Assembly (NCBI GenBank): GCA_019636655.1
Contig: JAHBXB010000001.1
Location: forward strand, 806,001-870,000
Direction: 5' to 3'
Source: Phycisphaeraceae bacterium
GTDB taxonomy: Bacteria; Planctomycetota; Phycisphaerae; Phycisphaerales; UBA1924
DNA: 64,000 bases
Shown here: positions 736-41,338 of the stretch, piece by piece
How the letters are laid out: every line of letters begins with the position of its first letter
Numbering within the stretch: position 1 is the stretch's first letter
Notes under the pieces: model-generated
What the model was told of the DNA's origin: nothing
The model's database searches: none
Seen by the model: the letters and a program-made list of their open reading frames with translations, nothing else
Position numbers and translations under genes: made by a program

Positions 736-1410
736 ATGATTCTGAACCGCGCCACGCTTGCCATCGTTCTGGCCGCCGGGCTCGCCGCGACTGCATCGGC
801 CGCCGAACCCCCGGGCTGCAAGAGCCAGGACCAGACGACGGAGCGTCTGCAGCCGTGCAACTCGATGTTCAGCCGCCTCGTCGGCGAATGGGAAGGCCAG
901 ATCCAGACTCGCAACAGCGACGGGCGCGTGTCGACCTCGATGGCCAGCGTTTCGAACCGCCTCGAGAACAACGACAAGTCACTTGTGTCCTGCTTCGAGG
1001 GCTTCGCCTTCGGTCGCCCGGTCCACGGCGCCTCGGTGATCCGCATGAACCCCGGCGCCCAGGCCGAGCGGTCGTGGTACACCAACCTGACGAACGCGAC
1101 CATGACGATGCCAATGAAGGCCTCGAGCAGCGAGAACTCGATCGCGTTCGCCGGCGAGGGCGTTGATCCCTCCACCGGCAAGACGGTGAGCATCGAGCAG
1201 GTGCTCCGCGTTGTCGATAGCAACAACTACGTCTTCGAGTCGTTCTCGATCGAGAGCAGCGGCGAGAAGGTCATGCTGATGCGCCTCGAGATGAGCCGGC
1301 TGCCCGAGGGCCGCCTCGCCCAGGCTGCCGAAAAGTTCAGCGACGCCAAGCTCCTGGCCAAGGTCCGGCTGAACTCGCCGGCGCAGACCGCCGACGCCAA
1401 CGGTCACTGA
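736..1410 (+). CDS. Secreted DUF1579-like protein
   Basis: A 224-residue protein with a clear signal peptide (residues 1 to about 22, ending ASA-AEP), so it is exported. The mature part begins with a small Cys-containing segment and then a lipocalin-like layout: FSRLVGEWEGQIQTRNSDG near residue 45, followed by alternating beta-strand segments. The phrase LVGEWEGQ and the overall size fit the DUF1579 family, whose function is unknown. A GGAG ribosome site lies about 8 bases before the ATG. The gene stands alone: 256 bases separate it from gcvP and a strong terminator follows. The family call is by pattern only and could be another THAP4/lipocalin-type family. Confidence 0.7.
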   Translation: MILNRATLAIVLAAGLAATASAAEPPGCKSQDQTTERLQPCNSMFSRLVGEWEGQIQTRNSDGRVSTSMASVSNRLENNDKSLVSCFEGFAFGRPVHGASVIRMNPGAQAERSWYTNLTNATMTMPMKASSSENSIAFAGEGVDPSTGKTVSIEQVLRVVDSNNYVFESFSIESSGEKVMLMRLEMSRLPEGRLAQAAEKFSDAKLLAKVRLNSPAQTADANGH

Positions 1411-1446
1411 TAACCGCCTCCACTCACGCGGCTCGTCCCTGCTCTG

Positions 1447-1485
1447 AACGGCGGCGCCGGTCTCGACCGGCGCCGCCGTTTTTCT
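1447..1485 (+). terminator. Intrinsic terminator
   Basis: A perfect 12-base stem (1449-1460 pairing with 1467-1478) with a six-base loop is followed by TTTTT. It follows the DUF1579-like gene and sits between two convergent genes. The T-run is on the + side, so termination should be strongest for the + transcript. Confidence 0.9.
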
Positions 1486-1487
1486 CG

Positions 1488-2633
1488 CTACCCCGGCGGA
1501 GGAAGCGGGCGGAGCCGCTCGGGGTGCCTGCTGCGGGCACGGACGAGATACGCCTCCAGCCAGCCGCGGGCGCGATCGGGGCGGCTCCTCGCGGCGAGAA
1601 TCTGCTCGTGGTCCAGAACGCCGATCCAGTCGATCGCCGAGCGGATCGCGTCCATGGAAATCCGGAGGGCCGTCTGCACGGGCATCCGCTCGGGATTGAT
1701 ATCGATCCCGAAGTGCCCGGTGTAGCCGTGCATCGCGAGCGTGTACAGAGCCGCATCAAGCTGCTCGGGCGACACGCTCCCGACGGGGAGGTCCTGGTCA
1801 TAGTTTCCCAGCGGCTGGCTGTTCCAGTGGCTGTGCGCAAGCCGGCCCTCGGAGAGAGGCCAAGAGAACGCGTAGGCCAAGTCCTCAAATCCCATCAGCA
1901 CGTGACCGACCTCGGGGTTCATGCACACCAGGGCGTGACCATCCCCCAGCAGCCGAGTATTGGGTTCCGCCCTGAGCCTGGACTCGACAAGCCGTCCGAG
2001 CAGAACGCCCTCGGCGGTCGTGCCGAAGAGGATGCGGCCACGCGGTTCGTACGGCTTGGGCTCGAAGGCCACCCGCACGCCCGGCACCTCGTCCATCGCC
2101 TCGGCGAGGCCGTCGATAAACCGATCTCTCGCGGCCACGAAGTCCAGGCCAAACGGGTTCTCGTACCCGTCGATTCCCGGCCAGAGAACGGCGAAGTCAC
2201 ACTCCAGTTCACGGTTCATCCGCAGGGCCGCCTTCGTTCGGTCGATCGCGGCCCGCCTTGGGGCCCCGAGCGGATTCGAGAGGCTGCCGAACTCAAACTG
2301 CTCGTCGTAGAACAGGTTCGGGATCACCGTCAGGATCCGTATCCCGGCCTGACGACTCCACGTCCGCCACACATCGATGTTCTGCTCGTTGATCTCATTG
2401 GGGTAGTGCGCCTCCAGCGCCGAAAGCCCGTCGGCCTTGAGCCCCGCCGCGACTTCGAGCCGCTCCTCCAGCGAGAGTTCCTTCTGATACCTCGCGTGAA
2501 ACCGGCTGGCCATCGGCGAGAAGAACCAGACCCCGGCGGAGAACTTCGGCTCAAGCCGGAACGCCCCGAGATGCGCCAGCAACTGCTCCGCAGTGCGGCG
2601 AGTGCCCTGCGATCGAAGGTCCACCAGCCCCAT
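1488..2633 (-). CDS. xylA: Xylose-isomerase-like sugar isomerase
   Basis: A 381-residue TIM-barrel protein that resembles the short (actinobacterial-type) xylose isomerases, which interconvert D-xylose and D-xylulose in the cytoplasm. The metal and substrate residues are seen in VAFEPKPYEPRG (family FEPKPxEP), CMNPEVGH (family NPExGH), and GNYDQDL (family YDQDL). Two positions depart from the classical enzyme: the TFHDxD region reads EAHYPNEI, and the first metal Asp of HIDLN reads HSHWN. It may therefore belong to a sister subgroup with another sugar substrate. An AGGAG site precedes the ATG. It is 23 bases downstream of the xylulokinase gene and probably cotranscribed, which supports a pentose pathway. 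Confidence 0.75.
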   Translation of the reverse strand: MGLVDLRSQGTRRTAEQLLAHLGAFRLEPKFSAGVWFFSPMASRFHARYQKELSLEERLEVAAGLKADGLSALEAHYPNEINEQNIDVWRTWSRQAGIRILTVIPNLFYDEQFEFGSLSNPLGAPRRAAIDRTKAALRMNRELECDFAVLWPGIDGYENPFGLDFVAARDRFIDGLAEAMDEVPGVRVAFEPKPYEPRGRILFGTTAEGVLLGRLVESRLRAEPNTRLLGDGHALVCMNPEVGHVLMGFEDLAYAFSWPLSEGRLAHSHWNSQPLGNYDQDLPVGSVSPEQLDAALYTLAMHGYTGHFGIDINPERMPVQTALRISMDAIRSAIDWIGVLDHEQILAARSRPDRARGWLEAYLVRARSRHPERLRPLPPPG

Positions 2634-2656
2634 TGCTTATCTCCTGACACCCCGCT

Positions 2657-4201
2657 CTACCGTGGCATCGCGGCGAACGTCTCCCGCAGTGCAGGGTACA
2701 CCCGCCCGTACATCCGCAGATGATCCGCGTAGAACCGGCGTGCCTCCTCATCCGGCTCGCGCACCTCAGTGTCCCGGATGACCTGGGCACAGGCCGCCTC
2801 AATGCTGGGCCACGCACCCACCGCAACCCCGGCAAGCAGCGCCGCACCGAGAGCGGGCCCCTCGGCCGTGGTGGGCATCGCCACTTCGCAGCCATAGATG
2901 TCCGCCTGCATCTGCCGCCAGAACGTCGACTTCGCGCCGCCCCCGCCGAGCAGGACCCGCTCGGATTCAATCCCGAGGCGCCGGAAGATACCGATGATCT
3001 GCGCCATCGTGAGGGTTACCCCCTCGATCAAAGCACGGATCATGGAGCCGCGTGTGTGGCGGGCGGTGAGCCCGACCCACGCTCCCCTCGCCGCGGGATC
3101 GGCGTGCGGGCACCGCTCGCCGGTGAGGTGCGGCAGGAACACAAGGCCCCCACATCCAGCGGGCGCCGCCCCGGCCTCCCTCATGAGGTCATCGAATGGA
3201 ACCCCTGGGGCCAGGACGCTCTGCGCCCAAGAGAGGGCCCCCGCGCCGGAGAGCATGCAGCCCGTAGTGCACCATCCGCCGGGTCGAGCGTCGGTTCCCG
3301 TGGCGGAACACATGGCATGCGTCCGACCGCACGCGGCGGCATCGACCAGATCGGGGCGACACGATTTCGTATGGGCGTACACCACTCCGCTCGTCCCGAG
3401 GGTTGCGAGCAGGACCCCCTCGCGCACGACCCCGGCGCCGAGAGCGCCCATCATGTTGTCACCGGATCCCGCCACGACGGCGGTTCCCTCTGCCAGCCCG
3501 GTCTGCGCCGAAGCCCACCGCGTCACCGTGCCCGCGACTTCGCCCGACTCATGCACCCTCGGAAGGATCGCGGGATCGATCTCCGCCGCGTCGCACACCG
3601 TCGGGCTCCACGCCCGCCTGGAGGGGTCATAGAGCAGCGTTCCGGATGCGTCCCCGACATCGGTCGCCGGCTGGCCCGTGAGCCGCCAGCGGACGAAGTC
3701 CTTGGGCATGAGGACACAGCCGACGCGGCCCCACAGTTCGGGCTCGTGCTCCCGGACCCACATCAGTTTCGGCAACGTGAATCCAGGCAGGGCCGCGTTT
3801 CCTGTCTCGCGGACCAGGCTGGCCCGCCCGCCCACGCGGGATTCGATCTGGGCGCACTGTTTCGCCGTCCGCTGATCGTTCCAGAGCAACGCCGTGCGCA
3901 GGGCGGCCCCCGTCCCCCCGCCCGCAAGGGTCTCACGACCGAGCAGGACCGACCCGTGCATCTGCCCGCTGAGTCCGACTGCCGTGATTTCTCGCGACGA
4001 CCGTCCCGATAGCCTCGCGACAGTTGGAACGAGCGATGCCACCCCCTTCCACCACAGTTCGGGATCCTGCTCGCTCCACCCCTCTCGTGGCCGGGTGACC
4101 GCATACTCGACCGACGATGTAGCGAGAACGCCCCCATGCTCATCGCACAGGATCGCCTTCGCCGCGGATGTTCCGATGTCAACTCCCAGCAGCAGGGCCA
4201 C
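2657..4201 (-). CDS. xylB: Xylulokinase (FGGY kinase)
   Basis: A 514-residue FGGY-family sugar kinase, full length for the family. It phosphorylates xylulose (or a related ketose) with ATP. Seen in the sequence: the N-terminal phosphate loop GVDIGTSAAKA, the substrate region GLSGQMHGSVLL, LLWNDQRT, the central SGDNMMGALGAG, LPHLTGERCPH, and the ATP-domain motif LLGGGGAKSTFWRQMQADI. The QMHG signature is typical of xylulokinases rather than glycerol kinases. The start is GTG. It lies 18 bases after the histidine kinase gene and 23 before the isomerase gene, so a sugar kinase and isomerase are tied to a two-component system in one probable operon. Confidence 0.88.
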   Translation of the reverse strand: MALLLGVDIGTSAAKAILCDEHGGVLATSSVEYAVTRPREGWSEQDPELWWKGVASLVPTVARLSGRSSREITAVGLSGQMHGSVLLGRETLAGGGTGAALRTALLWNDQRTAKQCAQIESRVGGRASLVRETGNAALPGFTLPKLMWVREHEPELWGRVGCVLMPKDFVRWRLTGQPATDVGDASGTLLYDPSRRAWSPTVCDAAEIDPAILPRVHESGEVAGTVTRWASAQTGLAEGTAVVAGSGDNMMGALGAGVVREGVLLATLGTSGVVYAHTKSCRPDLVDAAACGRTHAMCSATGTDARPGGWCTTGCMLSGAGALSWAQSVLAPGVPFDDLMREAGAAPAGCGGLVFLPHLTGERCPHADPAARGAWVGLTARHTRGSMIRALIEGVTLTMAQIIGIFRRLGIESERVLLGGGGAKSTFWRQMQADIYGCEVAMPTTAEGPALGAALLAGVAVGAWPSIEAACAQVIRDTEVREPDEEARRFYADHLRMYGRVYPALRETFAAMPR

Positions 4202-4219
4202 GTGCCGAGTGTAACCCCT

Positions 4220-6484
4220 TCAGGCCCCGGGCTGACGGTCGAGGGGCAGCGTCAGCACGAATCTCGCTCCCGGTGACACTCTCGCATCCAGGCGCAAGTC
4301 ACCTCCCAACTGCCGCGCCAGACCCCTGGACAACGCAAGCCCGAGTCCCAGGCCGGAGGCTCCGGCGTCGCCCGCGCCCTTGCCGCGGAAGAACGGCTCG
4401 AAGACATGGGCGCGATCATCAGCGCGAACCCCCTTCCCGAAGTCACGAACCGCGATTTCAAGGTCTCCTCCGGATTCCCGGACATCAACAGCCACCCGCT
4501 TGGAGTCGCCCTCGTGCTGGCCGTACTTGCACGCGTTGTCGATCAGGTTGAACACGATGCGCTCGACGGTCGCCGGGTCGACGCGAAGCCCGGCGCTCGA
4601 ACCGGCATCAAAGTCGACCGTGAGATCCATGCCGCACTGTGCCGCCCGCTCCGCCGCGCCGGGCCTGATGCGGTCGATCAATTCGCTCGCCGTAATCCAC
4701 TCGCGGCTGACCGGGACAGCCCGGCGTGTAATCCTCGCGTATTCGAGCACGTTCTCGACGATCCGCGCAAGCCGCTGGGCCTCCCGCTTGAGGGTGGCAA
4801 GGTACTCCCGCCGGCTGGCTTCCTCCTTGACCATGCCATCCGACAGCATCTGCGAGTACAGACAGAACGTCGTGAGGGGAGTACGAAGTTCGTGCGTCAC
4901 CGCGGAGACGAACCGACCCCGCCGTTCCGCCAGGCCCATCGACGCCCGAAGCACCATTGTGACCACGCCGATCGCTCCGATCGCGGCGATCCAGGAGAGC
5001 AGCAGGGCGGTCCGAAGTGGGGTCCACGCGGCCGCGCCATTCGGACCGACCACCGGGGCCACCGGTATGAGTTCTGCGGGGATTGAGGCCAGCCGCGACG
5101 CCAACCGTTCGGACTCAGGACTCCCACCCGCCACTTCAAGTGCCGGGCGATCCCGAACCGGCACAAGAACAGCCCCCGGAACAAGGTCAGACGCCTCGGC
5201 AACGAGCCACCGCTGCATCGCCGGCCAGTCGAGCCAGATGCCCTGCACAACCTCGTTCGAGCCCACGCGAACCGGACGCGTCAGGATGAGTTCGTCCTCG
5301 CCGCCAACCCCGCGCAGCCAGTTCGGCCGAAACTCCCCGGTCTGGACCGGCGCGGGTGTATTGGGCTCGGCGCCCGCCAACGCGTCCGCCGCGAACATCG
5401 CCGGGTCCAGGGCCCCAACCTGAGCCTCGGACACAACGATCGCCTGATCCGCTGGGCGGATGGGCCCTGCCTCTTCGTAGGCCCGCTCACGGGCGGGCCC
5501 CATGGATGAAGAATCGGCCCGCGACCGAGCGCCCCGATCGGCATCCGCCTCACCCTTCTCCCGCTTGACGCCGGCGCCTGCTGCTGCGGCGTCGCGGGCG
5601 GCGACATCCTTGTCCGCGAGCCTGCCCATTGCATCACCCTGTTCGGCCGGACTGACAGGCCCAGTTGCTGACGCCGGCGGCATCGACGCGGGCGGCGGCT
5701 CCGTGGCGGGAGCCTTAACCCACTGCTGCGGAACAATGTTGGTGGCCCGATCCGCCGCCTGCTTTCTCGCGGCATACTCGACCTCCGACCGCTGCCCGGC
5801 GCCCCGTTGGAGACTCTCATCGCTCAGCGTCTGCTGCGGAACCGACGCCGCAGCGAGGGAACGCCCGGCCCGCTCGGGGAGGTTCGATCGATCGTCCTCC
5901 CGACCCGGATCGCGTGCCTCCCGTTCGACCATGTCGAATCCAATGCCAGCGGCCGCACGCCCGACTTCCTTTGCAAGCCTGGTCGTCCGGCCGACCGCCA
6001 GCATGCGCGTGAGGGCGTCAAGCTGCCTCGTCTGCTCCACCACCTGTTCGCTCGAGACGTACGCGGCCTCCGCAAGGTCCCTCATGTTGCCCGCCGGAGC
6101 CTGCGGGGACGTCACGCTGCCGTCCGCGTTGACCTGGAAGTTCAGCCGCACGAACCGGCTGCCGGTTGTCAGCAGCGGCGAGGGCACCATGACCTCGCCG
6201 GGGCTCACCTCGTTCCACATCCGCGTGTACGCGCGATCGGCGGGGTAGAACGCCTGGTACTCGAAGTACGGCCTCGCCGCTTCGCGCGCAATAATCGGCG
6301 TAACCGCGGCGTCCATGCGCCAGAGCGTCAGCCGCACCGCCTCCTGCTGCTTGGCGTGCTCCCTGGCCCAGCGCTCCTCACGCTCCAGGCGCAGCGCGTG
6401 CGACGTGATCCACCCGAGCGCGGCCACCACCGCTCCGGCGGCGGCGACGAACACCACGACCGCCCGGCTGACCCTTCCCGTCAT
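4220..6484 (-). CDS. Membrane sensor histidine kinase with long extracytoplasmic region
   Basis: A 754-residue histidine kinase. TM1 covers residues about 8-29 and TM2 about 492-512, leaving roughly 460 residues outside the membrane. The middle of that region (about 165-400) is Ala/Arg/Glu/Pro-rich and looks low-complexity; the parts flanking it look folded. No HAMP domain is evident: TM2 is followed closely by the H-box (AVTHELRTPLT, His531). The catalytic domain has the N-box FNLIDNACKYG (about 645-655), DFGKGV, FEPFFRG and GLGLGLALSRGL. Its start overlaps the regulator stop by one base (TGATG), so the two proteins form a translationally coupled pair. The signal sensed is unknown. Confidence 0.92.
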   Translation of the reverse strand: MTGRVSRAVVVFVAAAGAVVAALGWITSHALRLEREERWAREHAKQQEAVRLTLWRMDAAVTPIIAREAARPYFEYQAFYPADRAYTRMWNEVSPGEVMVPSPLLTTGSRFVRLNFQVNADGSVTSPQAPAGNMRDLAEAAYVSSEQVVEQTRQLDALTRMLAVGRTTRLAKEVGRAAAGIGFDMVEREARDPGREDDRSNLPERAGRSLAAASVPQQTLSDESLQRGAGQRSEVEYAARKQAADRATNIVPQQWVKAPATEPPPASMPPASATGPVSPAEQGDAMGRLADKDVAARDAAAAGAGVKREKGEADADRGARSRADSSSMGPARERAYEEAGPIRPADQAIVVSEAQVGALDPAMFAADALAGAEPNTPAPVQTGEFRPNWLRGVGGEDELILTRPVRVGSNEVVQGIWLDWPAMQRWLVAEASDLVPGAVLVPVRDRPALEVAGGSPESERLASRLASIPAELIPVAPVVGPNGAAAWTPLRTALLLSWIAAIGAIGVVTMVLRASMGLAERRGRFVSAVTHELRTPLTTFCLYSQMLSDGMVKEEASRREYLATLKREAQRLARIVENVLEYARITRRAVPVSREWITASELIDRIRPGAAERAAQCGMDLTVDFDAGSSAGLRVDPATVERIVFNLIDNACKYGQHEGDSKRVAVDVRESGGDLEIAVRDFGKGVRADDRAHVFEPFFRGKGAGDAGASGLGLGLALSRGLARQLGGDLRLDARVSPGARFVLTLPLDRQPGA

Positions 6485-7224
6485 CAGCCCCCCTCCCGGT
6501 GCGCGTCGGCCGTGGGGACCGGGTCCGAAGCGTCACCGGCAAGCATGTACCCCTTGGCCCTGACCGTCGTGATGACCCGGGGCTCCGAGGGATCGTCCTT
6601 CAGCACCTCCCGGATTCTCGCCACCGCCATGTCAATCGTCCGCGTCTGCATCCCGCGCGGATCGAGGCCCCACACCCGCTGCAGCAACTCTTCCCGCGAA
6701 ACCGCCCGTCCACGATTCGCCGCGAGATAGGCCAGAAGCTCCGCCTCACGGGGTGTAAGCGATGCCCTTGTGCCATCCTCCAGGACTGCCTCGCGGCGGT
6801 CAAAGTCGATCGTCCTTCCGGCGATGACGATCCGCGGCTGCGCTGCGGGCCGTCCGGGCGAACGCCGCATCACCGCCTCGATTCTCGCGAGCAGTTCGTT
6901 GACGCCGAAGGGCTTGATCACGTAGTCGTCCGCGCCGAGCCGAAGGCCCTGCACCCGGTCTTCCTCCTCCCCGACCGCCGTGAGAAAGATCACCGGCAGC
7001 GAGGCCCGCGACCTGCGGAGCTCCCGCAGCACCTCGGTCCCGTTCATCTTCGGCATCAGGATGTCGAGGAGGACCAGGTCCAGCTCGCCGGCAAGTGCCG
7101 CCTCGAGCCCGGCGCGTCCGTCCGCCGCCTCCCGGACGGAGTATCCGGAACACGCGAGCGCATCGCACACACCTCGGCGGATCGCCGGGTCATCCTCGAT
7201 CACCAGCACGGTTCCCAGTGACAT
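6484..7224 (-). CDS. OmpR/PhoB-family response regulator
   Basis: A 246-residue regulator. The receiver domain (about 1-120) has the acidic pair EDD at 10-12, phospho-acceptor Asp54 in LVLLDILMPKMNG, Thr/Ala in FLTAVG and Lys in DDYVIKPFG. The C-terminal winged helix (about 145-235) contains LTPREAELLAYLAANRGR and RTIDMAVARIREVL, typical of OmpR/PhoB DNA-binding domains. It should be phosphorylated by the kinase encoded immediately downstream. It lies 18 bases after the DUF4139 gene. Direct repeats of the kind this family binds occur upstream of the operon (11363-11381), so autoregulation is plausible but inferred. Confidence 0.95.
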   Translation of the reverse strand: MSLGTVLVIEDDPAIRRGVCDALACSGYSVREAADGRAGLEAALAGELDLVLLDILMPKMNGTEVLRELRRSRASLPVIFLTAVGEEEDRVQGLRLGADDYVIKPFGVNELLARIEAVMRRSPGRPAAQPRIVIAGRTIDFDRREAVLEDGTRASLTPREAELLAYLAANRGRAVSREELLQRVWGLDPRGMQTRTIDMAVARIREVLKDDPSEPRVITTVRAKGYMLAGDASDPVPTADAHREGG

Positions 7225-7242
7225 CCGCGGCTCCTCCCTTCC

Positions 7243-8802
7243 CTACCAACTGTACTTCACCGTATACGTCACGGTCGCCTCGCCGTCAGGGTCCAGCGTC
7301 ACCGGGAAGTACACCGTCCGCGAATCCGCCTTCTCGTACTCGCTCGAGTGCTTGATGATCGCCCAGTTCGCCCACCGGTACATGTTCTCCTTGATGATCA
7401 CGCGCACAGGCTCGGCCTTGTGGTTGCGGACCTTGACCTCAACAGTCTCTTCGATCCAGCGCCGCTTGGAATCGACCTTGAAGTCCACCTGACGCCGCTC
7501 CCCGACGACGTCGAACGCCGAACCCAGCTTGATCAGAACGCTCTCGTCCTTGGCGGTGTGGTCGATGACATTCTCCCCGATGAACTCCATCGATCCGTCA
7601 GCAGGATCGACCTTGTTGACGCGGATGCGCCCGCTCGGCAGCGGCATGCCCATCCGGCTCTCCTTGGAGTTCTTGAAGCGCAGGTAGATGTCGACCTTGC
7701 TGTTGGATTGTGTGCCGAAGTTCCGGTCGACCACCGGATCGGGATGGACCCCGTAATACCCGTCACCGAGCCCGTAGTACACCAGCACCTTCTCGCACGG
7801 GACCCCGTGAACCGGATCGAACAGTTCGATCTGCTTGGTCGCGTTGTCGGGAATCGTCGCCGCCCTGCCGAGCGTGTACAGGTGGTACTCGAAGAACGAC
7901 TTCTCCGCAAAGCCGGCCGATTCGGCCGCAGACGGTGCGGCCACCATGGCGGCCATTCGGCCCCTTCGCTGCGGCGCCCGCTGCACGTCGCCGGCAACCA
8001 GCTTGAGCGTTGCATCCGTGTACGAAGCGCCGGACTTGTTCAGGATGCTGACCCACGCTGAAACATCCAGCGTCCCCGAGTTGGCGTCCTTCCCCTCCGC
8101 GAACACGAGGTTGTAGTCCGCCCACCACGTGATCCCCGAGGTCTGGTAGGTCACCCGCACCGGTGTCGGGCCCCCGGCGTCGCTGGCCACGTCCCAGACA
8201 AGTGTCGGCCGCGTGATGAGCCCATCCGGCAACGCGGGGAACCGGATGTTGCTGTACCCATTCACCACCTGGATCGTGCCGTCGTCGGACCTGAGCACGA
8301 GGTTCCCATAGGCCGAGAGCAGGGTCCCCGCAAGCGTGACCACCTTGTCACCCTGCACCTGATCAACGCTGATCGGCCGATCGATGAACTTGCGGAGCAG
8401 GACCTCGTTGCTCACGAGGTCGAACTGGTAACTCTGCTCCAGGATCGTGGCGCTGCCGTTGCGTGCCGTGAAGGAGACCGTGGTCGGCTCGATCAGCGAC
8501 GCGACATCCGTGTACCGAACGGTGCTGCGACCGCGGGCCAGGTCAAACGTTCGGTCCTCCCGCACCAGCGCGTACCCCGGAATCTCCTCCCAGGGATACC
8601 CCCGCGAGTAGCCGCCTTCCATGGGAACCGGGCGGTACAACTCGGCGGGTATCGCCCCCGGGGTTGCCGACGAATAGATCGTCACCGCCGTCGAGCCCGC
8701 GGCCCCGGCTATGCCCGCCGCGGCGGGCTGGCCGACACGTTCCGGCTGGAGTGCCAGCCCCGCCACCGCCGCCATCACCCATGCTGCAAACGCCATAGTC
8801 AC
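7243..8802 (-). CDS. DUF4139 domain secreted protein
   Basis: A 519-residue protein with an N-terminal signal peptide or anchor (residues 1-20). The C-terminal half fits DUF4139: the KVDIYLRFKNSKE, MPLPSGRIRV and GSAFDVVGER segments and the final VTLDPDGEATVTYTVKYSW. The family is mostly beta, often exported, and of unknown biochemical function. The N-terminal half is beta-rich and includes a PTPVRVTYQTSGITWWADYN stretch typical of these proteins. It sits 43 bases after the VIT-VWA gene and 18 before the response regulator, so it is likely expressed with both. It may act with the VIT-VWA protein at the cell surface (inference from context). Confidence 0.82.
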   Translation of the reverse strand: MTMAFAAWVMAAVAGLALQPERVGQPAAAGIAGAAGSTAVTIYSSATPGAIPAELYRPVPMEGGYSRGYPWEEIPGYALVREDRTFDLARGRSTVRYTDVASLIEPTTVSFTARNGSATILEQSYQFDLVSNEVLLRKFIDRPISVDQVQGDKVVTLAGTLLSAYGNLVLRSDDGTIQVVNGYSNIRFPALPDGLITRPTLVWDVASDAGGPTPVRVTYQTSGITWWADYNLVFAEGKDANSGTLDVSAWVSILNKSGASYTDATLKLVAGDVQRAPQRRGRMAAMVAAPSAAESAGFAEKSFFEYHLYTLGRAATIPDNATKQIELFDPVHGVPCEKVLVYYGLGDGYYGVHPDPVVDRNFGTQSNSKVDIYLRFKNSKESRMGMPLPSGRIRVNKVDPADGSMEFIGENVIDHTAKDESVLIKLGSAFDVVGERRQVDFKVDSKRRWIEETVEVKVRNHKAEPVRVIIKENMYRWANWAIIKHSSEYEKADSRTVYFPVTLDPDGEATVTYTVKYSW

Positions 8803-8845
8803 TCCTTGCTCGCCGCGCGTCCATGGTACAACGCCGATGACAGCG

Positions 8846-11215
8846 CTATTCGGGGTTCTTGAACAGCACCCGCTGGTTGTTGAGCATCAGATACACATCG
8901 CCGCCGAACGCCAGCATCCCCTGCCGATTCTCCTGCACCAACTGGGCCACGCACTGGGTGTACTCCGGCGTGCCGAACTCGACAACCCGATCGGGCTTCT
9001 CCTGCTCGCTTGCCAGCAGGCGGGTGTCCACCCACCGCCCGCCGCGATTCAGGCATGCCTCGCCGCCGACCTGCTGGACACCGGCGATCCGAACCATGTT
9101 CATATCCGCATCCAGGTAGCAGTTCATCGCCTGCGCGCTGGTCTGGCGGAACTGCTCGTCGTTGTTCTTGGCCTGGGCAACGCCGCTCGCTCCAGCACGG
9201 TCGGACGAGATCTTCTTGACTTCCGAGGACAGCCTGTCGCTCGCCGCGCGAGCAGGCACGAACTCAGGCATCGCCAGTCCGCGTTCCCTGCGGTCGGCCA
9301 CTTCCGCTGGGTCGGTGGCCAGGAATGAAGTGTATTCGGTGAGGATGCCAAACCGCGTGCTCAGGCGCACGACCTCATCAACCAACTCCTTGGTCCGCGG
9401 ATCCGTGGCGGTGCTGCCATTCGCTCCGGACTGGCGGATCTCATCCAGAAGGGCCGCGATCTTGCGGCTCGCCCACAGCCGCGGCACGTGCCCGTTCCGG
9501 GTGCTCGCCGCGCCGGGGTCGAGCGTGAACTCGAACGACCGATCCTTCCCGAAGAAACGGCCGTCAAGCCGCATCCTGGTCGGAGCATCGCCCGTGTACT
9601 CGCCGAGCACGACAAGCTGGTCCCCCTCGAACAGGTCCGGCAACTCGCCGCCGGCGCCGCCGATACCCGCCTGAAGATCCCGAACAAGCCGTGTTGACGG
9701 CTTCCCGTCGCCGTCAAGGGCCACGAGCCGCGGCGCCGCAAACGCCGGCCCGCTCAGGCGCCTGAACACCTGCGACACCTTCACCTCGACGTCCTCCTGG
9801 GGAAGCACGAACGTGCTCGCCGCGCGGCTGCCCCGCGCCAGCGCCGACAGCAGCGGCGCGTTGACGTCGAACCCCACCCCGAACGTAAAGATCCGCCGAT
9901 CAAACGTGTTCGCGCGGGCCACGTCCTCGCGGATCTGCACCTCGCTGCGCACCCCCACCGTCGGAAGCCCATCGGTCATGAAGAGCACCATCGGAAGCGC
10001 CTCGGGCGTCGGCGTTACCCGCAGCGATTCGATGGCCGCATCGTGAAGGTTGGTTCCTCCCCCCGCCTCGATCGCCAGCAGGTATTCCCTCGCCTGCTCA
10101 ACTGTCCGAGCGTCCTTCACAACCGGCTTGTCCGCGAACGACCGGATCGAATCGGAGTAGTCGATGATGTTGAACGACTCACCGTTCTCGAGCCCCGCGA
10201 CCACCTGCAGCGCGGCGTTCCTGGCCTGCTCGAGCTTCTCGCCCCGCATCGAACCGGATCGATCAAGAACCATCACGACTTCACGCCGAGTGGCGGTCCG
10301 ATCGGCGGGGCGGTCGGAGGGGAGCCCGGCCAGCAGCAGGAAGTACCCGCCGTGCCCGTCGCCGACACTCGGATCCGGGTACGCGATGATCGTTGTCGAG
10401 AGGCCGTCACCCGCCGACTTCTCCAGCAGGTACGAGAGCCGGTAGGCGCCGGCCGCGCGGGACGCCGCCTCGGGCAGGTTGACCTTGTACTGCGTCGGCG
10501 ACACCCGTTCCGTCGCGAACTCGTGGCTGGGGGAGTAGACGGTTGAGATCGGCCGGCTGCTCTTGATCGTCATCCCCACCGTCCACACCGCATCCCCCCC
10601 ACTGATCGACCCGGCGCCCTCGCTGCGCGGAAGGACAAAGTCGACCCGGTCACCATCCCGCGGCAACACCTGCTCGTACACCAACCGCACCTTCTGGGTG
10701 GCCCCGGCGGGAACCGGGAAGACACTGGACTTGATCAGGTTGTACCCTGCGAACTCGAGCAGCGCCGGGTCGCGCTCCCGATTCACGATGGACTCGTAGA
10801 TCCGCCTCGCCTCGTCGCGGGGGAGCAGCTTGGCGGTCGGCTCCGACCCGGTCCCGTCGTACTGGAACGAGCGGATGGCCACCCCGTCCGGGACCGGGAC
10901 GACCAGTTCCGCCTCCTGGGGTCGATTCGACGGATTGGTCAGCGTGAACTCGAACGACGTCACCGCGACCTGATCGTCGATCGCGACCTCGGCGCCAACC
11001 GCTGAAAGACTCACCGGGGCCGGGACATTCGGCCGCGGCGGCCGCCGCCGGACCTGCGGCACAATAACCGTAGGTCCCGTGGTGGTCGTCACGGTCGTCT
11101 GCGTGGTTGTGCTGGTCACGGTCGTCGTGGTCTGCGCCGAGACCGCCGACCCGAGCGACACCGCGAATCCAGCCGCCGCCACGATCGCCAAAGTCCGATG
11201 CTTGATCGCTTCCAT
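8846..11215 (-). CDS. Secreted VIT and von Willebrand factor A domain protein
   Basis: A 789-residue exported protein. The chosen ATG (codon 36 of the longest frame) gives a signal peptide ending SAVSAQ and has a GGAG site 8 bases upstream. A Thr-rich linker (about 29-46) precedes a VIT domain (about 65-190, with RDEARRIYESIVNRERDPALLE, the typical VIT signature). The VWA domain starts near 310 with the intact MIDAS motif VMVLDRSGSM (Asp318) and continues with MVLFMTDGLPTVG. The C-terminal 200 residues contain paired cysteines. The layout resembles inter-alpha-trypsin-inhibitor heavy-chain and marine-proteobacterial sortase-cluster proteins. It is the probable first gene of a six-gene operon. 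Confidence 0.9.
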   Translation of the reverse strand: MEAIKHRTLAIVAAAGFAVSLGSAVSAQTTTTVTSTTTQTTVTTTTGPTVIVPQVRRRPPRPNVPAPVSLSAVGAEVAIDDQVAVTSFEFTLTNPSNRPQEAELVVPVPDGVAIRSFQYDGTGSEPTAKLLPRDEARRIYESIVNRERDPALLEFAGYNLIKSSVFPVPAGATQKVRLVYEQVLPRDGDRVDFVLPRSEGAGSISGGDAVWTVGMTIKSSRPISTVYSPSHEFATERVSPTQYKVNLPEAASRAAGAYRLSYLLEKSAGDGLSTTIIAYPDPSVGDGHGGYFLLLAGLPSDRPADRTATRREVVMVLDRSGSMRGEKLEQARNAALQVVAGLENGESFNIIDYSDSIRSFADKPVVKDARTVEQAREYLLAIEAGGGTNLHDAAIESLRVTPTPEALPMVLFMTDGLPTVGVRSEVQIREDVARANTFDRRIFTFGVGFDVNAPLLSALARGSRAASTFVLPQEDVEVKVSQVFRRLSGPAFAAPRLVALDGDGKPSTRLVRDLQAGIGGAGGELPDLFEGDQLVVLGEYTGDAPTRMRLDGRFFGKDRSFEFTLDPGAASTRNGHVPRLWASRKIAALLDEIRQSGANGSTATDPRTKELVDEVVRLSTRFGILTEYTSFLATDPAEVADRRERGLAMPEFVPARAASDRLSSEVKKISSDRAGASGVAQAKNNDEQFRQTSAQAMNCYLDADMNMVRIAGVQQVGGEACLNRGGRWVDTRLLASEQEKPDRVVEFGTPEYTQCVAQLVQENRQGMLAFGGDVYLMLNNQRVLFKNPE

Positions 11216-11435
11216 GTCAGGCTCCTGCACCCAGATCAGACCCACGCGTGCCACGGCGCCCAGCCGGGCCAACGTGCATCCCAGGACCGGCTCGTCACCA
11301 ACCAACGACGGCCGGCCCACTGTTTAGTCGTTTATTCCTACCGCCCGGGTCCCCGTGCGGCGGTAACGCCTTTGTAACGCCGCCGCGGCCCGCGCCGGGT
11401 CGTGCATTCTCGGCCTTCCGCCGCCCGCCGCGGGT
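11216..11435 (-). promoter_or_regulatory. Operon leader with 11-base-spaced direct repeats
   Basis: This 220-base gap lies upstream of the VIT-VWA/two-component/xyl operon. GTAACGCC occurs twice on the + strand (11363-11370 and 11374-11381), start to start 11 bases apart, that is GGCGTTAC-AAA-GGCGTTAC on the transcribed strand. OmpR/PhoB regulators bind direct repeats with this spacing. An AT-rich patch (11322-11342, TAGGAATAAACGACTAAACA on the minus strand) follows and may hold the -10 element. The exact promoter is not certain. Confidence 0.45.
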
Positions 11436-14400
11436 CTATTCGGCCACGGACGCGGCCGCCTCGCCCTGTTCCGGAGCCGGCGGCTCCGATGTCGCACCGC
11501 CCGGGGTCATCGTCCGCAGAATGAAGTCGTACATCAATCGCTGATACTGCTTGCCCGTAATCCCATGCCGATTCGTCGGGTACACCGCCTGATCGAACTG
11601 CTTCCCGGCCGACTGCAGCGCCTTCGCCAGCTTCATCGAGTTCTGCGGGTGCACGTTGTCGTCCATGAGGCCGTGGACCAGCAGAAGGCGGCCCCGCAGA
11701 TCCTTCGCGGCCCGAACGACGCTGGACCGGCGGTAGCCGTCCGGGTTTTGCTGCGGCGTCAGCATCAGCCGCTCGGTGTAGATCGAGTCGTAGTCGCGCC
11801 AATCGGTCACCGGCGCCCCCGCAATCCCCGCGGCAAAGAGCGACGAGTGAGTCATTGCGTACGCCGTGAGGAAGCCCCCGTACGAGTGTCCGTGCATCCC
11901 GATGCGGCCCGGGTCCGCCCACGGATGTTCGCCTGTGAACCAGCGGATCCCGTCCTCGACGTCCCGAAGTTCCGGCACCCCAAGTTCCTTGTAACACCGC
12001 CACGCCGACCTGGCGCTGACGCCGCTCGCCGACCGCGGATCGGCACGGAACACCACGATCCCCGCCTGCGCCAGCACCTGCTCCCAGACTCGCCCGTTCG
12101 CCCACGAGTCCGAGATCGTCGGCGCGTGCGGCCCGCCATAGGTCAGGAACCAGACCGGGTATCCCTCGGTCCGAGACGGGTCAAACCGCGGCGGATAGGT
12201 GACCGCTCCCTGCATCGAACCCGAGTCCTCGCCGCTTCCAACAGGGACCCGCACCAGTTCAAAGTCCCCGAAGTCGTACTCGTCCAGAACATGCACGGGA
12301 TTCGTATCGATCGTCCTGACGGCCCCCCCTCCATCCGTCGACCTCAGCACGACCCTCATCGGAGTGGTCACGTTCGACCACGTGTCGACGAAGAGCTCAC
12401 CGGTCGGATTCATCACGATCGAATGCGACCCGGATTCGGTCGTCAGGCTTTGGAACCCGCTGCCGTCGAGCCGCACCCGATACAGCCCCGGCGCAATCGG
12501 ACTCGGCTGCGTGCCCGCAAGGTACACCCATGGAGAGCCGGATGCTGCCGCACCCGCGGGTCCGCTGGAATCCCCGGCCCGTTCCTCACCCTGCCCCTCG
12601 ATCAGCACGATCTGCCGATCCTCCCAATCCCCGTTCAGAATCGGCCTCGGCCCCTCGTCGCCCGATGCAGGCGCCGAAGCCCCCGTCGGGTGTCCTTCAC
12701 GATCAAAGTGATACGGATGCTTGTACCCGGAACGCTCCAGCAGGACGAGAAACGACCCATCTCTCATGAACTTGGGCTCATCCAGCTGCTCAACCCAGGC
12801 ATCGGTCGTCTCACGGAACAGCTTCTTTGTGCTCCCGTTCTCCGCATCCACAGCGCACACATCCAGCCAGGTTTGCGTCCTGTCCTGAACACCGACCATC
12901 GCCGCCCTGCTGTCGGGCCACCAGAAGACGCCAGTAATGAGGAACGCCCCAGGGTCATAGTCGGGCATCTCGGCCCACGTCACGTCGCCGCCCGCAGCGC
13001 TCACCACGCCCAGGCGAACGACGGGGTTCGGCTGCCCGGGCTTCGGGTAGGGAGTCACCTCGACCCGCTGCGGATCCGTGGTCTCGTTCACAACCGTGAA
13101 CGTCGGCACCTGCCGCGAATCCACCTCGAGCAGCGCAATCCGGGAAGAGTCCGGCGCCCACCAGTACGCCCGCCAGTTCCTGCCGAAGACTTCCTCAAAG
13201 TAGACCCAGTCGTTCTTGCCGTGGCGCAGCAGGTCCGTGCCGCCCGTGGTGAGCTGCCGGCTCGTCCTGGTCGCCCGGTCGACGACCCAGAGGTCATTGT
13301 CCCGCACAAAGGCAACCATCGCGCCATCCGGGCTGAACGATGCGAGTTCCTCCTTCTCCGGCGAACTGGTCAGGCGTTCAGCCGCCGAGCCGTCAACTAC
13401 CGCGTAATACAGATCGTTCTCGTGTTCGAACAGCAGACCCGTGAAGTCCTCCGTCATCGTGAACGACGTCCGCTCGCTGATCTTCTTGGCCTGCTTCGCA
13501 TCGATCGAAGGAACACCCTCCAGCGCCCGCGCCAGCACCTCAGGGTCGATGAACCGCTCCATGCGCCCCGTGTCGGCCGCCACTTTCCACAACGACCTGT
13601 CCTTGGCCTGGAGAAAGTGCTTGCCGTCCTTCATCCACTTGATGCCGCCGACCGGATCTCCGCCAAAGTCGGGCGCCTTCTCCGCGCCGTAGATCGCCTC
13701 GAACGTCAACGGCTGGTTGACCTTCCGATCCTCCGGGAGCGGTCGCACCGCACACGTCGTCAGCCCGACCGGCGCGTCCAGCCGCACCACCGGCGTCTCG
13801 GCCCCGACCGCGAGCGAATCGCCGAGGAACCCCCACGCGCCCAGCCCGTCCTCGCACGCCGGCTCCAGCAGGTACGACGCCAGCCGCCCTCGCTTCTGAC
13901 CAGTCCGCACCACGATCGTGCCCGGCGGGAACGACCTCGCCTCCTGTGTCTTCCGGACCTCAAGGTCGACGAGCCGCCGACCCTGGAATGGCCGCTCCGA
14001 CCGCGTGATCCCCCCGACGGAATACACGCCGACATCCAGCTCGACATCCTCCCGCAACTCCTCGACCTCGATCCCGTGACGCTGCAGCACCTCGACAATC
14101 GCCGTCTCGGAAGCGGGCATCATGTACGCCCAGGCCATCGGAACATCCAGGGTCGATTCGAAGCGGTCCCGGAGTTCCACCTCGTACTCCCGCGGCCGGT
14201 CAGTCGGCGTAACCACCCCGTCAACCTCGACCTCCTCCCACCCAAGCACCGTTACCTTCTGCGGCCTCGACGCGGCCTTGGTGCGCAGCGCCACCACGTC
14301 ATCCGGCGCCGGCCGGCGCCCTCCATCGATGGCCCGTTGATCCGCCTCCCTCTCCAGATCCCAAATCGCCTCCCGATTCTCCGCGGCGTACTCCAGCACC

Positions 14401-15401
14401 TCGCGGCAGAACTCCAGTGTTCCCCGGACACGCTCCCGGTACGGTGCGTGAGAGTACGACTCGACCAGGATCCCCACCCGGTTCCTCAGCCCCACGTACG
14501 ACGTCCCGTACCTCGCTTCGGCCGGAAACGTCTCCCACGCACCGCGATCTTTCGAGAAGTTCCCGTAGAAAAACGACTTGATGCCGGTCCTTGCTTCGAG
14601 CCGCCGCGAGATCTCCGGCAGCAGCGTCCCGTTGACATAGTCGCCCATCGCCGAATCGCCGGCCGGCACCTTCGGCCCCGCGTACGTGATCAGGTACTGG
14701 TGAAACGAACCATCGGTCGTGTGCGTGTCCACCACAACCGCGGGATCCCACTCGTTGATGAACTTCACGAGCGCCCGGGTCTCGGGCGCGGCGAGCTTGA
14801 CGAAGTCCCGGTTCAGGTCCAGGCCCTGCGCGTTCTCCCTCGTTCCTACCCCGCCCTCGGGCCCCACCTGCTCCGGGCGACGCTCTCTCACATCCCCCAC
14901 ATCCTCGTTGCCGTCCGCGTTGTACACCGGGGCGATCACGACAACCAGGTCCTCAAGAACCCGCTTCGAGAACGCCTCCTCCGCCTCCGTCGGGTGGAGA
15001 ATCTGGCGTGCCAGCATCGGCAGCGCCTCTTTCCCATCGACTTCCCCCGCGTGAATCCCCCCAAGCAGGAGCACCACCGGCTTCTTCAGTTTCCGCGCGT
15101 CCCTCGCCGACTTCACGGGCTTGTCGGAGATCACCAGCAGCGGGATCGCTCGATCCTGGTGAGTCCGGCCCATCTCCAGTCGTGTGGCCTTCGGCGAAGA
15201 GGCCGCGATGGCGTCCAGCAGCCCGACCACGTCCGCATACCGCGATGTCTTCGTGTAGTCGGACGACTCGGCAACCGTCCGCAGGCCCGCCGCGGCGTGT
15301 TCGACCGGTTGATCAGGCTGGCGCCCCTGCGCCGTCGGCTGGGCGCACGCCCCCGGGACGGCCAGAACCACGGCGACGAAAACCCACACCACTTTCGACA
15401 T
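11436..15401 (-). CDS. M14 zinc carboxypeptidase fused to DPP-IV-like S9 peptidase
   Basis: A 1321-residue exported protein with two complete peptidase units. The ATG at 15401 gives a signal peptide ending ACAQ and has a GGAG site; the longer upstream frame is not convincing. The M14 domain (about 45-330) has zinc ligands HAGE (His117, Glu120) and His227 in VVVDTHTTDG, DLNRDF, and general base Glu314 in ILVESYSH. The S9B part (about 610-1300) has a beta-propeller with the double-Glu region WVYFEEVF that reads the substrate N-terminus in DPP-IV, then the hydrolase triad Ser1173 (GHSYGG), Asp1247 (MDDNVH) and His1279 (NRHG). It may trim peptides from both ends. No gene partner is close enough to be surely cotranscribed. 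Confidence 0.9.
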   Translation of the reverse strand: MSKVVWVFVAVVLAVPGACAQPTAQGRQPDQPVEHAAAGLRTVAESSDYTKTSRYADVVGLLDAIAASSPKATRLEMGRTHQDRAIPLLVISDKPVKSARDARKLKKPVVLLLGGIHAGEVDGKEALPMLARQILHPTEAEEAFSKRVLEDLVVVIAPVYNADGNEDVGDVRERRPEQVGPEGGVGTRENAQGLDLNRDFVKLAAPETRALVKFINEWDPAVVVDTHTTDGSFHQYLITYAGPKVPAGDSAMGDYVNGTLLPEISRRLEARTGIKSFFYGNFSKDRGAWETFPAEARYGTSYVGLRNRVGILVESYSHAPYRERVRGTLEFCREVLEYAAENREAIWDLEREADQRAIDGGRRPAPDDVVALRTKAASRPQKVTVLGWEEVEVDGVVTPTDRPREYEVELRDRFESTLDVPMAWAYMMPASETAIVEVLQRHGIEVEELREDVELDVGVYSVGGITRSERPFQGRRLVDLEVRKTQEARSFPPGTIVVRTGQKRGRLASYLLEPACEDGLGAWGFLGDSLAVGAETPVVRLDAPVGLTTCAVRPLPEDRKVNQPLTFEAIYGAEKAPDFGGDPVGGIKWMKDGKHFLQAKDRSLWKVAADTGRMERFIDPEVLARALEGVPSIDAKQAKKISERTSFTMTEDFTGLLFEHENDLYYAVVDGSAAERLTSSPEKEELASFSPDGAMVAFVRDNDLWVVDRATRTSRQLTTGGTDLLRHGKNDWVYFEEVFGRNWRAYWWAPDSSRIALLEVDSRQVPTFTVVNETTDPQRVEVTPYPKPGQPNPVVRLGVVSAAGGDVTWAEMPDYDPGAFLITGVFWWPDSRAAMVGVQDRTQTWLDVCAVDAENGSTKKLFRETTDAWVEQLDEPKFMRDGSFLVLLERSGYKHPYHFDREGHPTGASAPASGDEGPRPILNGDWEDRQIVLIEGQGEERAGDSSGPAGAAASGSPWVYLAGTQPSPIAPGLYRVRLDGSGFQSLTTESGSHSIVMNPTGELFVDTWSNVTTPMRVVLRSTDGGGAVRTIDTNPVHVLDEYDFGDFELVRVPVGSGEDSGSMQGAVTYPPRFDPSRTEGYPVWFLTYGGPHAPTISDSWANGRVWEQVLAQAGIVVFRADPRSASGVSARSAWRCYKELGVPELRDVEDGIRWFTGEHPWADPGRIGMHGHSYGGFLTAYAMTHSSLFAAGIAGAPVTDWRDYDSIYTERLMLTPQQNPDGYRRSSVVRAAKDLRGRLLLVHGLMDDNVHPQNSMKLAKALQSAGKQFDQAVYPTNRHGITGKQYQRLMYDFILRTMTPGGATSEPPAPEQGEAAASVAE

Positions 15402-15469
15402 GATCGACCGCTCCAGTCGCCCGCCGCTCCGGCACGGGTTCAACACCGAACTCATCACACGAGGAGTCC

Positions 15470-16036
15470 TCACGGGTCCACGACGAGCATCTTCGCCGCC
15501 TTCCCGTCGTTCCCGAAGACCACCACCCGGCTGGCGCCCTCGGCCCACCCCAGCACCGCCGACGGCCTCGCCTCGCTCGTATACGCGCTCACCGACCCGT
15601 TCCCAGCCTCCGCCGCAAGCGTCACCGACGGCGACGCACCAGTCCCGCCGAACACGTTCACGACGCCCCCGCCACCATCGGGCCTCCCCGAGATCTCAAC
15701 AAGCCTGCCCCCCTTCGCATCAGCCAGCGCCAGCGCCCCGCTCCCGCTTCGTGTTGCCGCCAGCGTGGCCACCAGCGCCCCATCCACTCCCTGCACCGCC
15801 ACCACCCCACCCGAAGCCGTTCCACCGATGGTCACGAGCGTCCGCCCCGCCTCGTCCACGACGTGCAGGCGGAGCACCCTCAACTCGTCGATCGGCGCCG
15901 GCGGCCCGCCCTCCGAACCACGGGCATAGCCCATGGCGGCTGCCCCCGCGGCGACCACCACCACGGCCAGCGACAGGGCGCGAAACCGGCCAACCGATCT
16001 CTCCAGCCGCTCGATCCGTCGTTCTGTCTCATCCAT
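15470..16036 (-). CDS. Membrane-anchored beta-repeat protein, unknown
   Basis: A 188-residue protein not recognised as a named family. The ATG at 16036 has a GGGAG site 9 bases upstream. Residues 1-20 are charged and helical (MDETERRIERLERSVGRF, coiled-coil-like), followed by a single membrane segment (about 21-38), so it is probably anchored with a short cytoplasmic tail. The outer part is made of short Gly/Val/Ala-rich repeats such as VVAVQGVDGALVATLAA and VVNVFGGTGASPSVTLAA, resembling beta-helix-like repeats. It ends 68 bases before the start of the M14-S9 peptidase and may be in the same transcript. Confidence 0.7.
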   Translation of the reverse strand: MDETERRIERLERSVGRFRALSLAVVVVAAGAAAMGYARGSEGGPPAPIDELRVLRLHVVDEAGRTLVTIGGTASGGVVAVQGVDGALVATLAATRSGSGALALADAKGGRLVEISGRPDGGGGVVNVFGGTGASPSVTLAAEAGNGSVSAYTSEARPSAVLGWAEGASRVVVFGNDGKAAKMLVVDP

Positions 16037-41065: not shown

Positions 41066-41338
41066 ATGAAACCGGTGCCGGAGCGACCCTCCCCTGATCT
41101 GGATAGTGACCACTAGCCTTGGTGAGAACCGAGGGGATCAGAAAAGCCACTTGTGGGCGGGCCAGGTGGACTCGTGAGGGAACCGGTTGGAGCCGCTGGA
41201 CGAATGTCCCCTGGTTCCGTTACACTGGCGTCGGGCGGTACACAACCGCTTGCGACCAACCTGTTTACGGAAGACGCCCGCGTCGAAACGCCCACTCTTT
41301 CGACGCACGGGGGAGTGTCAAACCGCTTGGAGTCTGGC

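Follow-up and report, generated by a model that had tools for sequence, protein, structure and literature searches.

A single planctomycete polypeptide carrying the active-site residues of both an M14 zinc peptidase and a DPP-IV-type S9B peptidase

In a 64,000-nucleotide stretch of DNA from a Phycisphaeraceae bacterium (contig JAHBXB010000001.1, positions 806,001 to 870,000; hereafter the window), a gene on the minus strand at positions 11436-15401 encodes an M14-S9B fusion protein, in which the full active-site residue sets of an M14 peptidase and of a dipeptidyl peptidase IV (DPP-IV)-type S9 peptidase stand in one real and conserved polypeptide, as indicated by Pfam domains, residue counts and relatives. 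The gene runs from an ATG to a stop codon in one frame (15401 to 11436; 1321 codons, terminal stop only) and encodes 1321 amino acids, and its relatives are likewise read in one frame. The preliminary description of this DNA had placed the gene at the right coordinates without giving its strand. The residues it had named for the M14 site (His117, Glu120, His227 and Glu314), for the S9 site (Ser1173, Asp1247 and His1279) and for reading the substrate N-terminus (WVYFEEVF, containing Glu736-Glu737) all stand at those positions in the translation. Judged from its sequence, the protein is fairly probably an exported exopeptidase with two activities, one shortening peptides from each end. All features of the gene described below lie on the minus strand.

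The M14 zinc-peptidase domain occupies residues ~40-345 (14367-15284), as delimited by Pfam and by a fold match to human carboxypeptidase B, and Peptidase_M14 matched residues 61-228 with an E-value of 1.7e-21 (77.5 bits, cut-off 21.6). It holds the zinc motif His117-Ala-Gly-Glu120 (15042-15053), the zinc ligand His227 (14721-14723) and Glu314 (14460-14462), which we take to be the counterpart of carboxypeptidase A Glu270, in agreement with alignments to carboxypeptidases N and D (CPN and CPD). The segment from Arg188 to Asn197-Arg198 (14808-14840) is also conserved and aligned to CPD/CPN, and by motif and alignment these three residues are presumably the counterparts of carboxypeptidase A Arg127, Asn144 and Arg145; the residues predicted to hold the substrate C-terminus are thus kept. 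Profile matches of the M14 half in the PDB were carboxypeptidases D, N, B and A (best E 1.5e-10). A model of the M14 half alone (506 residues, six sequences) had a predicted local distance difference test score (pLDDT) of 69.5 and a predicted template modelling score (pTM) of 0.71, with 122 residues below pLDDT 50. Human carboxypeptidase B matched its residues 2-305 with Z 20.6 over 235 aligned residues at 3.1 Å. The fold matches to carboxypeptidases cover the first 308 model residues, beyond which lies an accessory region (residues ~362-545; 13767-14318) that is common to stand-alone M14 relatives and has no Pfam match. These data, namely a Pfam score above the cut-off, the zinc ligands with the catalytic Glu and the alpha/beta fold, indicate that this half is a member of the M14 family. 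A short junction (residues ~546-570; 13692-13766), variable in the alignment of fused sequences, leads to the S9 half.

The S9 half consists of a DPP-IV N-terminal beta-propeller (residues 664-1015; 12357-13412), matched by Pfam DPPIV_N with an E-value of 1.6e-73 (248 bits, cut-off 22), and a catalytic alpha/beta-hydrolase domain (residues 1108-1296; 11514-12080), matched by Peptidase_S9 with an E-value of 4e-45 (154.4 bits, cut-off 22.6). The propeller carries Glu736-Glu737 (13191-13196), the pair that reads the substrate N-terminus in DPP-IV enzymes, and the hydrolase domain carries the nucleophile Ser1173 in GHSYGG (11883-11885), Asp1247 in DDN (11661-11663) and His1279 (11565-11567). The bacterial DPP IV structures 2ecf (E 7.5e-85) and 5yp1 (E 3.2e-83) matched this half, with the Glu pair aligned. 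From their motifs, and in agreement with the alignment to 2ecf, we take E736, E737, Y1088, Y1204, Y1208 and N1249 to be the counterparts of the Glu-Glu pair, Tyr547, Tyr662, Tyr666 and Asn710 of human DPP-IV. Both Pfam scores above their cut-offs, the Ser-Asp-His order, the Glu pair and its companion residues indicate that this half belongs to S9B (DPP-IV).

Residues were counted in an alignment of 45 fused sequences (44 for the M14 residues), from which L058 (two in-frame TAG codons) and L100 (M14 core missing) were excluded. Duplicates recognized by identical match scores (L009, L038, L039, L040, L059, L098, L101, L102 and L110) were dropped beforehand, and L106, L107, L108 and L109, which are cut by contig ends, were counted only at the residues they reach; the 45 rows are non-independent, L002, L003, L004 and L037 being near-identical. 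His117, Glu120, His227, Arg188 and Asn197 were each kept in 43 of 44 fused rows and Glu314 and Arg198 in all 44, the sole deviating row being L015, and all seven were kept in 49/49 M14-only relatives. Glu736 and Glu737 were present in 45/45 fused rows, Ser1173 in 43/43 and Asp1247, Asn1249 and His1279 in 42/42 of those reaching each site; Y1088, Y1204 and Y1208 were also present in every fused row reaching them, and the S9-only rows (19/19) kept all tested S9 residues. In 12 close fused pairs, the ratio of nonsynonymous to synonymous substitution rates (dN/dS), obtained by a simple Nei-Gojobori count on pairs that share some members, was 0.08-0.33 for the M14 half and 0.04-0.32 for the S9 half. 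Both halves are therefore under purifying selection in 12/12 close pairs, and neither is decaying there.

Read by eye, the N-terminus shows a hydrophobic stretch ending ACA-QP, and residues 1-20 (15342-15401) form a probable Sec signal peptide, so that the protein is probably exported. The source genome (G000) has a single copy of the fusion protein; elsewhere it has two more DPPIV_N matches, both weak, and one other M14 match (C2:332882-333718) with a Pfam score above that of the fusion gene. An NCBIfam scan of the protein listed eight families (S9 enzymes Dpp5, lasso isopeptidase and others), none over its curated cut-off (best 54.1 bits vs 900). On the plus strand, a 1454-amino-acid open frame (11565-15929) lies antisense to the whole gene and matches only antisense frames of relatives; it probably arises as a side effect of G+C-rich codon usage.

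The preliminary description had proposed a search for this architecture in other genomes, and had named a frameshift or an assembly error joining two genes as what would overturn it. Many other genomes contain this two-domain frame without interruption, with chains 41-53% identical, and this recurrence excludes such an error and indicates that the fusion is not an assembly join. The phylum sample of 392 genomes includes at least 12 with both halves in one unbroken frame, from seven family codes (G000, G384, G064, G002, G037, G095, G034, G377, G235, G372, G303 and G186), and the family sample of 163 genomes includes at least 34, with five further fusions in the latter cut by contig ends (G426, G465, G427, G412 and G468). 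In one genome (G488), the fused frame L058/L125 contains two in-frame TAG codons, which may reflect a broken gene, an assembly fault or recoding. In the order sample, at least 46 of 400 genomes matched at E <= 1e-160, cut, broken and truncated genes included, 40 of them in the same family and 6 in family code f5. The full protein is present at 46-49% identity in five database records, of which three nearly duplicate one another, and the nearest records are metagenome-assembled genomes of Phycisphaerae and other Planctomycetota. The contig scan for the full protein required one of six exact peptide patterns and sampled other phyla thinly; among plasmids, 219 records matched, but no match spanned 80% of the query, and 22 stretches of viral contigs matched a pattern, none of them a relative. 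Four S9-only frames with N-terminal extensions were rejected as fusions, because Pfam gave S9-type matches only (L019 and L022) or because the extension read on inspection as a non-coding open frame (L027 and L028).

In the S9 tree, 44 of the 45 fused rows formed one strongly supported group, with the S9-only L024 inside, and L018 (G186) fell outside it among S9-only proteins. Topology tests with the approximately unbiased (AU) method used 41 of 64 rows, after 23 near-copies and long branches had been dropped. A single clade of all fused rows was rejected (26 vs 15 rows, p-AU 5.8e-08), as was one of all fused rows plus L024 (p-AU 0.0137), and a clade of the fused rows without L018 was not rejected (p-AU 0.62). 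No M14 gene was found in the 5.3 kb before the S9 gene L024 (G361). For the M14 half, one clade of all 44 fused rows was rejected (p-AU 0.0129) in a quick tree with a weak backbone that includes the long branch L015, a result that would follow equally well from several fusions or from later loss of the S9 half by M14-only genes. The most straightforward history is a single main fusion followed by some losses of the S9 half, with a second fusion probable in the G186 lineage; several fusions are possible. Most of the 50 M14-only loci (one a duplicate) stop just past the accessory region. In one of them, L094/L124 (G188), the M14 and S9 relatives are adjacent genes on one strand, with a gap of less than 150 bases when the start is placed at the first visible in-frame ATG. 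The probable second joining (L018) and these neighbouring genes suggest that the pairing is useful. The M14 unit takes other partners too: in L084 (G128, 2797-5238), the same unit is fused with a 3-keto-disaccharide hydrolase domain (PF06439, E 9.7e-37).

From what is known of M14 and S9B peptidases and from the residues kept, C-terminal trimming and N-terminal dipeptide release are the likeliest activities. In the proposed mechanism, the protein would be exported by the Sec pathway, and the M14 domain would bind zinc through His117, Glu120 and His227, grip the substrate C-terminus with Arg198, Asn197 and Arg188, and use Glu314 as the general base to remove residues from the C-terminus. The S9B half, made of propeller and hydrolase, would grip the substrate N-terminus with Glu736-Glu737 and cleave off dipeptides by means of Ser1173, Asp1247 and His1279. 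Two independent active sites tethered by the short junction would be the simplest way of working, so that one secreted molecule might supply nutrients by degrading, at both ends, oligopeptides outside the cell or in the periplasm. Planctomycetes are reported to be rich in secreted peptidases (PMC6411800), in keeping with a role in nutrition. A more demanding version is rather unlikely: that the two sites are arranged for both-ends work on one peptide, possibly with hand-over between them, in a pairing assembled at least twice in planctomycetes (the main lineage and G186). The full-length AlphaFold2 model of the relative L006 (1200 amino acids, six sequences) had a pLDDT of 54.1 and a pTM of 0.47, with 549 of 1200 residues below pLDDT 50, which is too poor for the relative placing of the two sites or a common cavity to be read from it; S9B structures were among the matches listed by Foldseek for this model.

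The observations that weigh against a both-ends exopeptidase are given here with the alternatives to which they lend support. The two peptidases may be merely co-carried, the fusion equalising their export and dose while their substrates differ and no single peptide is trimmed at both ends, a role to which we assign a minor though appreciable likelihood. In the family sample, an M14 protein without a listed fused gene occurs in at least 32 genomes, indicating that the halves work apart, and two genomes (G499 and G497) have a separate M14 protein beside the fused (or truncated) gene. The separate halves are mostly unlinked, with an S9 relative in the retrieved flanking sequence at 3 of 50 M14-only loci (L094, L095 and L097), and each retains all its tested residues. 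Moreover, no gene neighbours are shared among window positions 1001-26000, L002/L003, L005 and L006 (segments of at least 120 amino acids, E <= 1e-8); L002 and L003, which are near-identical, have a neighbourhood in common. Repeated joining with both sites retained argues for some coupling, though simple co-carriage is still compatible with it.

It is also unlikely, though worth weighing, that the M14 domain has another M14 activity, such as that of an amidase or a peptidoglycan-peptide hydrolase, beside a true DPP-IV. M14 members are not all carboxypeptidases, and the M14 half is distant from solved carboxypeptidases in a single-sequence search (best E 6.5e-05) and has its own accessory region. 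The candidates for the Tyr248 counterpart (F292, Y298 and Y302) vary among rows, and the Arg188-Arg198 loop is of low confidence in the M14 model (pLDDT near 33), as is the loop of residues 279-305. However, Arg188, Asn197 and Arg198 are kept almost throughout the fused rows, the listed profile and fold matches are carboxypeptidases, and the murein amidase MpaA matched only with E 0.094.

It is quite improbable that the M14 half serves the DPP-IV half chiefly through binding or regulation, with its own catalysis dispensable. Two relatives point that way, and here the preliminary description, whose stated grounds for refutation included relatives having lost the activity of one site or the other, stood only in part. 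In L015 (G235, frame 1345-5094), His117 is replaced by Arg, Glu120 by Asp and His227 by Arg, Asn197 is missing and the S9 residues are intact; its M14 branch is very long (1.48), and by its residues it is a predicted natural M14-dead version. In L100 (G497, frame 2971-5769, minus strand), the M14 catalytic part is missing and the S9 half is kept, the match to the 506-residue M14 query starting at its residue 385; L078 is a separate M14 gene of that genome. Against this reading stand the retention of the M14 residues in the other 43 of 44 fused rows and the low dN/dS of the M14 half. Finally, the chance that the whole is an artefact of frameshift, misassembly or chance motifs is negligible. Nothing in the window gene suggests it, and the recurrence in the family sample and the five database records refutes it, even though the TAG codons of G488 show that faults or broken genes can occur in individual genomes.

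Elsewhere in the window, a histidine kinase, a response regulator, a DUF4139-like protein (below cut-off) and a VIT/VWA protein are encoded in a row at 4220-11320, on the strand of the peptidase gene. A very long frame of 2605 amino acids on the plus strand (41153-48970) has only a weak Pfam ASRT match (30.6 bits, cut-off 25).

Both parts of the protein belong to known, ordinary families, and it is their combination that is unusual and testable. Should both activities be borne out, the protein would be a naturally occurring enzyme able to attack peptides at both termini with a single chain, with bearing on how planctomycetes use surrounding protein and on peptide-hydrolysis technology. Because fused, separate, neighbouring-gene and site-dead versions exist in related genomes, they offer a clean test of whether an exopeptidase fusion exceeds the sum of its parts. 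Compared with M14 metallocarboxypeptidases (A, B, N and D, and bacterial carboxypeptidase T), the M14 half is alike in its zinc motif, its counterparts of Glu270 and of the Asn-Arg pair and its fold, but it adds an accessory region of ~180 residues, is distant in sequence and has no close solved relative. Stand-alone planctomycete M14 relatives (e.g., L067 and L076) are 35-52% identical over the whole M14 and accessory part but stop just past the accessory region, without an S9 half. The S9 half resembles the bacterial DPP IV of Stenotrophomonas (2ecf) and Pseudoxanthomonas (5yp1) in its propeller and hydrolase, Ser-Asp-His order and Glu pair; in contrast to these solved enzymes, which have no M14 domain, the window protein has ~550 residues ahead of this half. 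Prolyl tripeptidyl aminopeptidase, an S9B enzyme that removes tripeptides, shares fold and family with the S9 half (2d5l and 2eep, E ~1e-71); structures of this enzyme and of DPP-IV both match it, and the window enzyme may release either dipeptides or tripeptides. Our literature search found no description of an M14-S9B pairing. A survey of prolyl oligopeptidases in prokaryotes describes bacterial DPP domains joined to an S41 peptidase and PDZ (PMC4522959); its main text mentions neither M14 nor carboxypeptidase, and its supplement, which lists 105 bacterial architectures, may include the pairing. As presented there, the S41/PDZ-joined DPP proteins also combine an S9-type half with another peptidase family in one bacterial protein, but their partner is S41 rather than M14.

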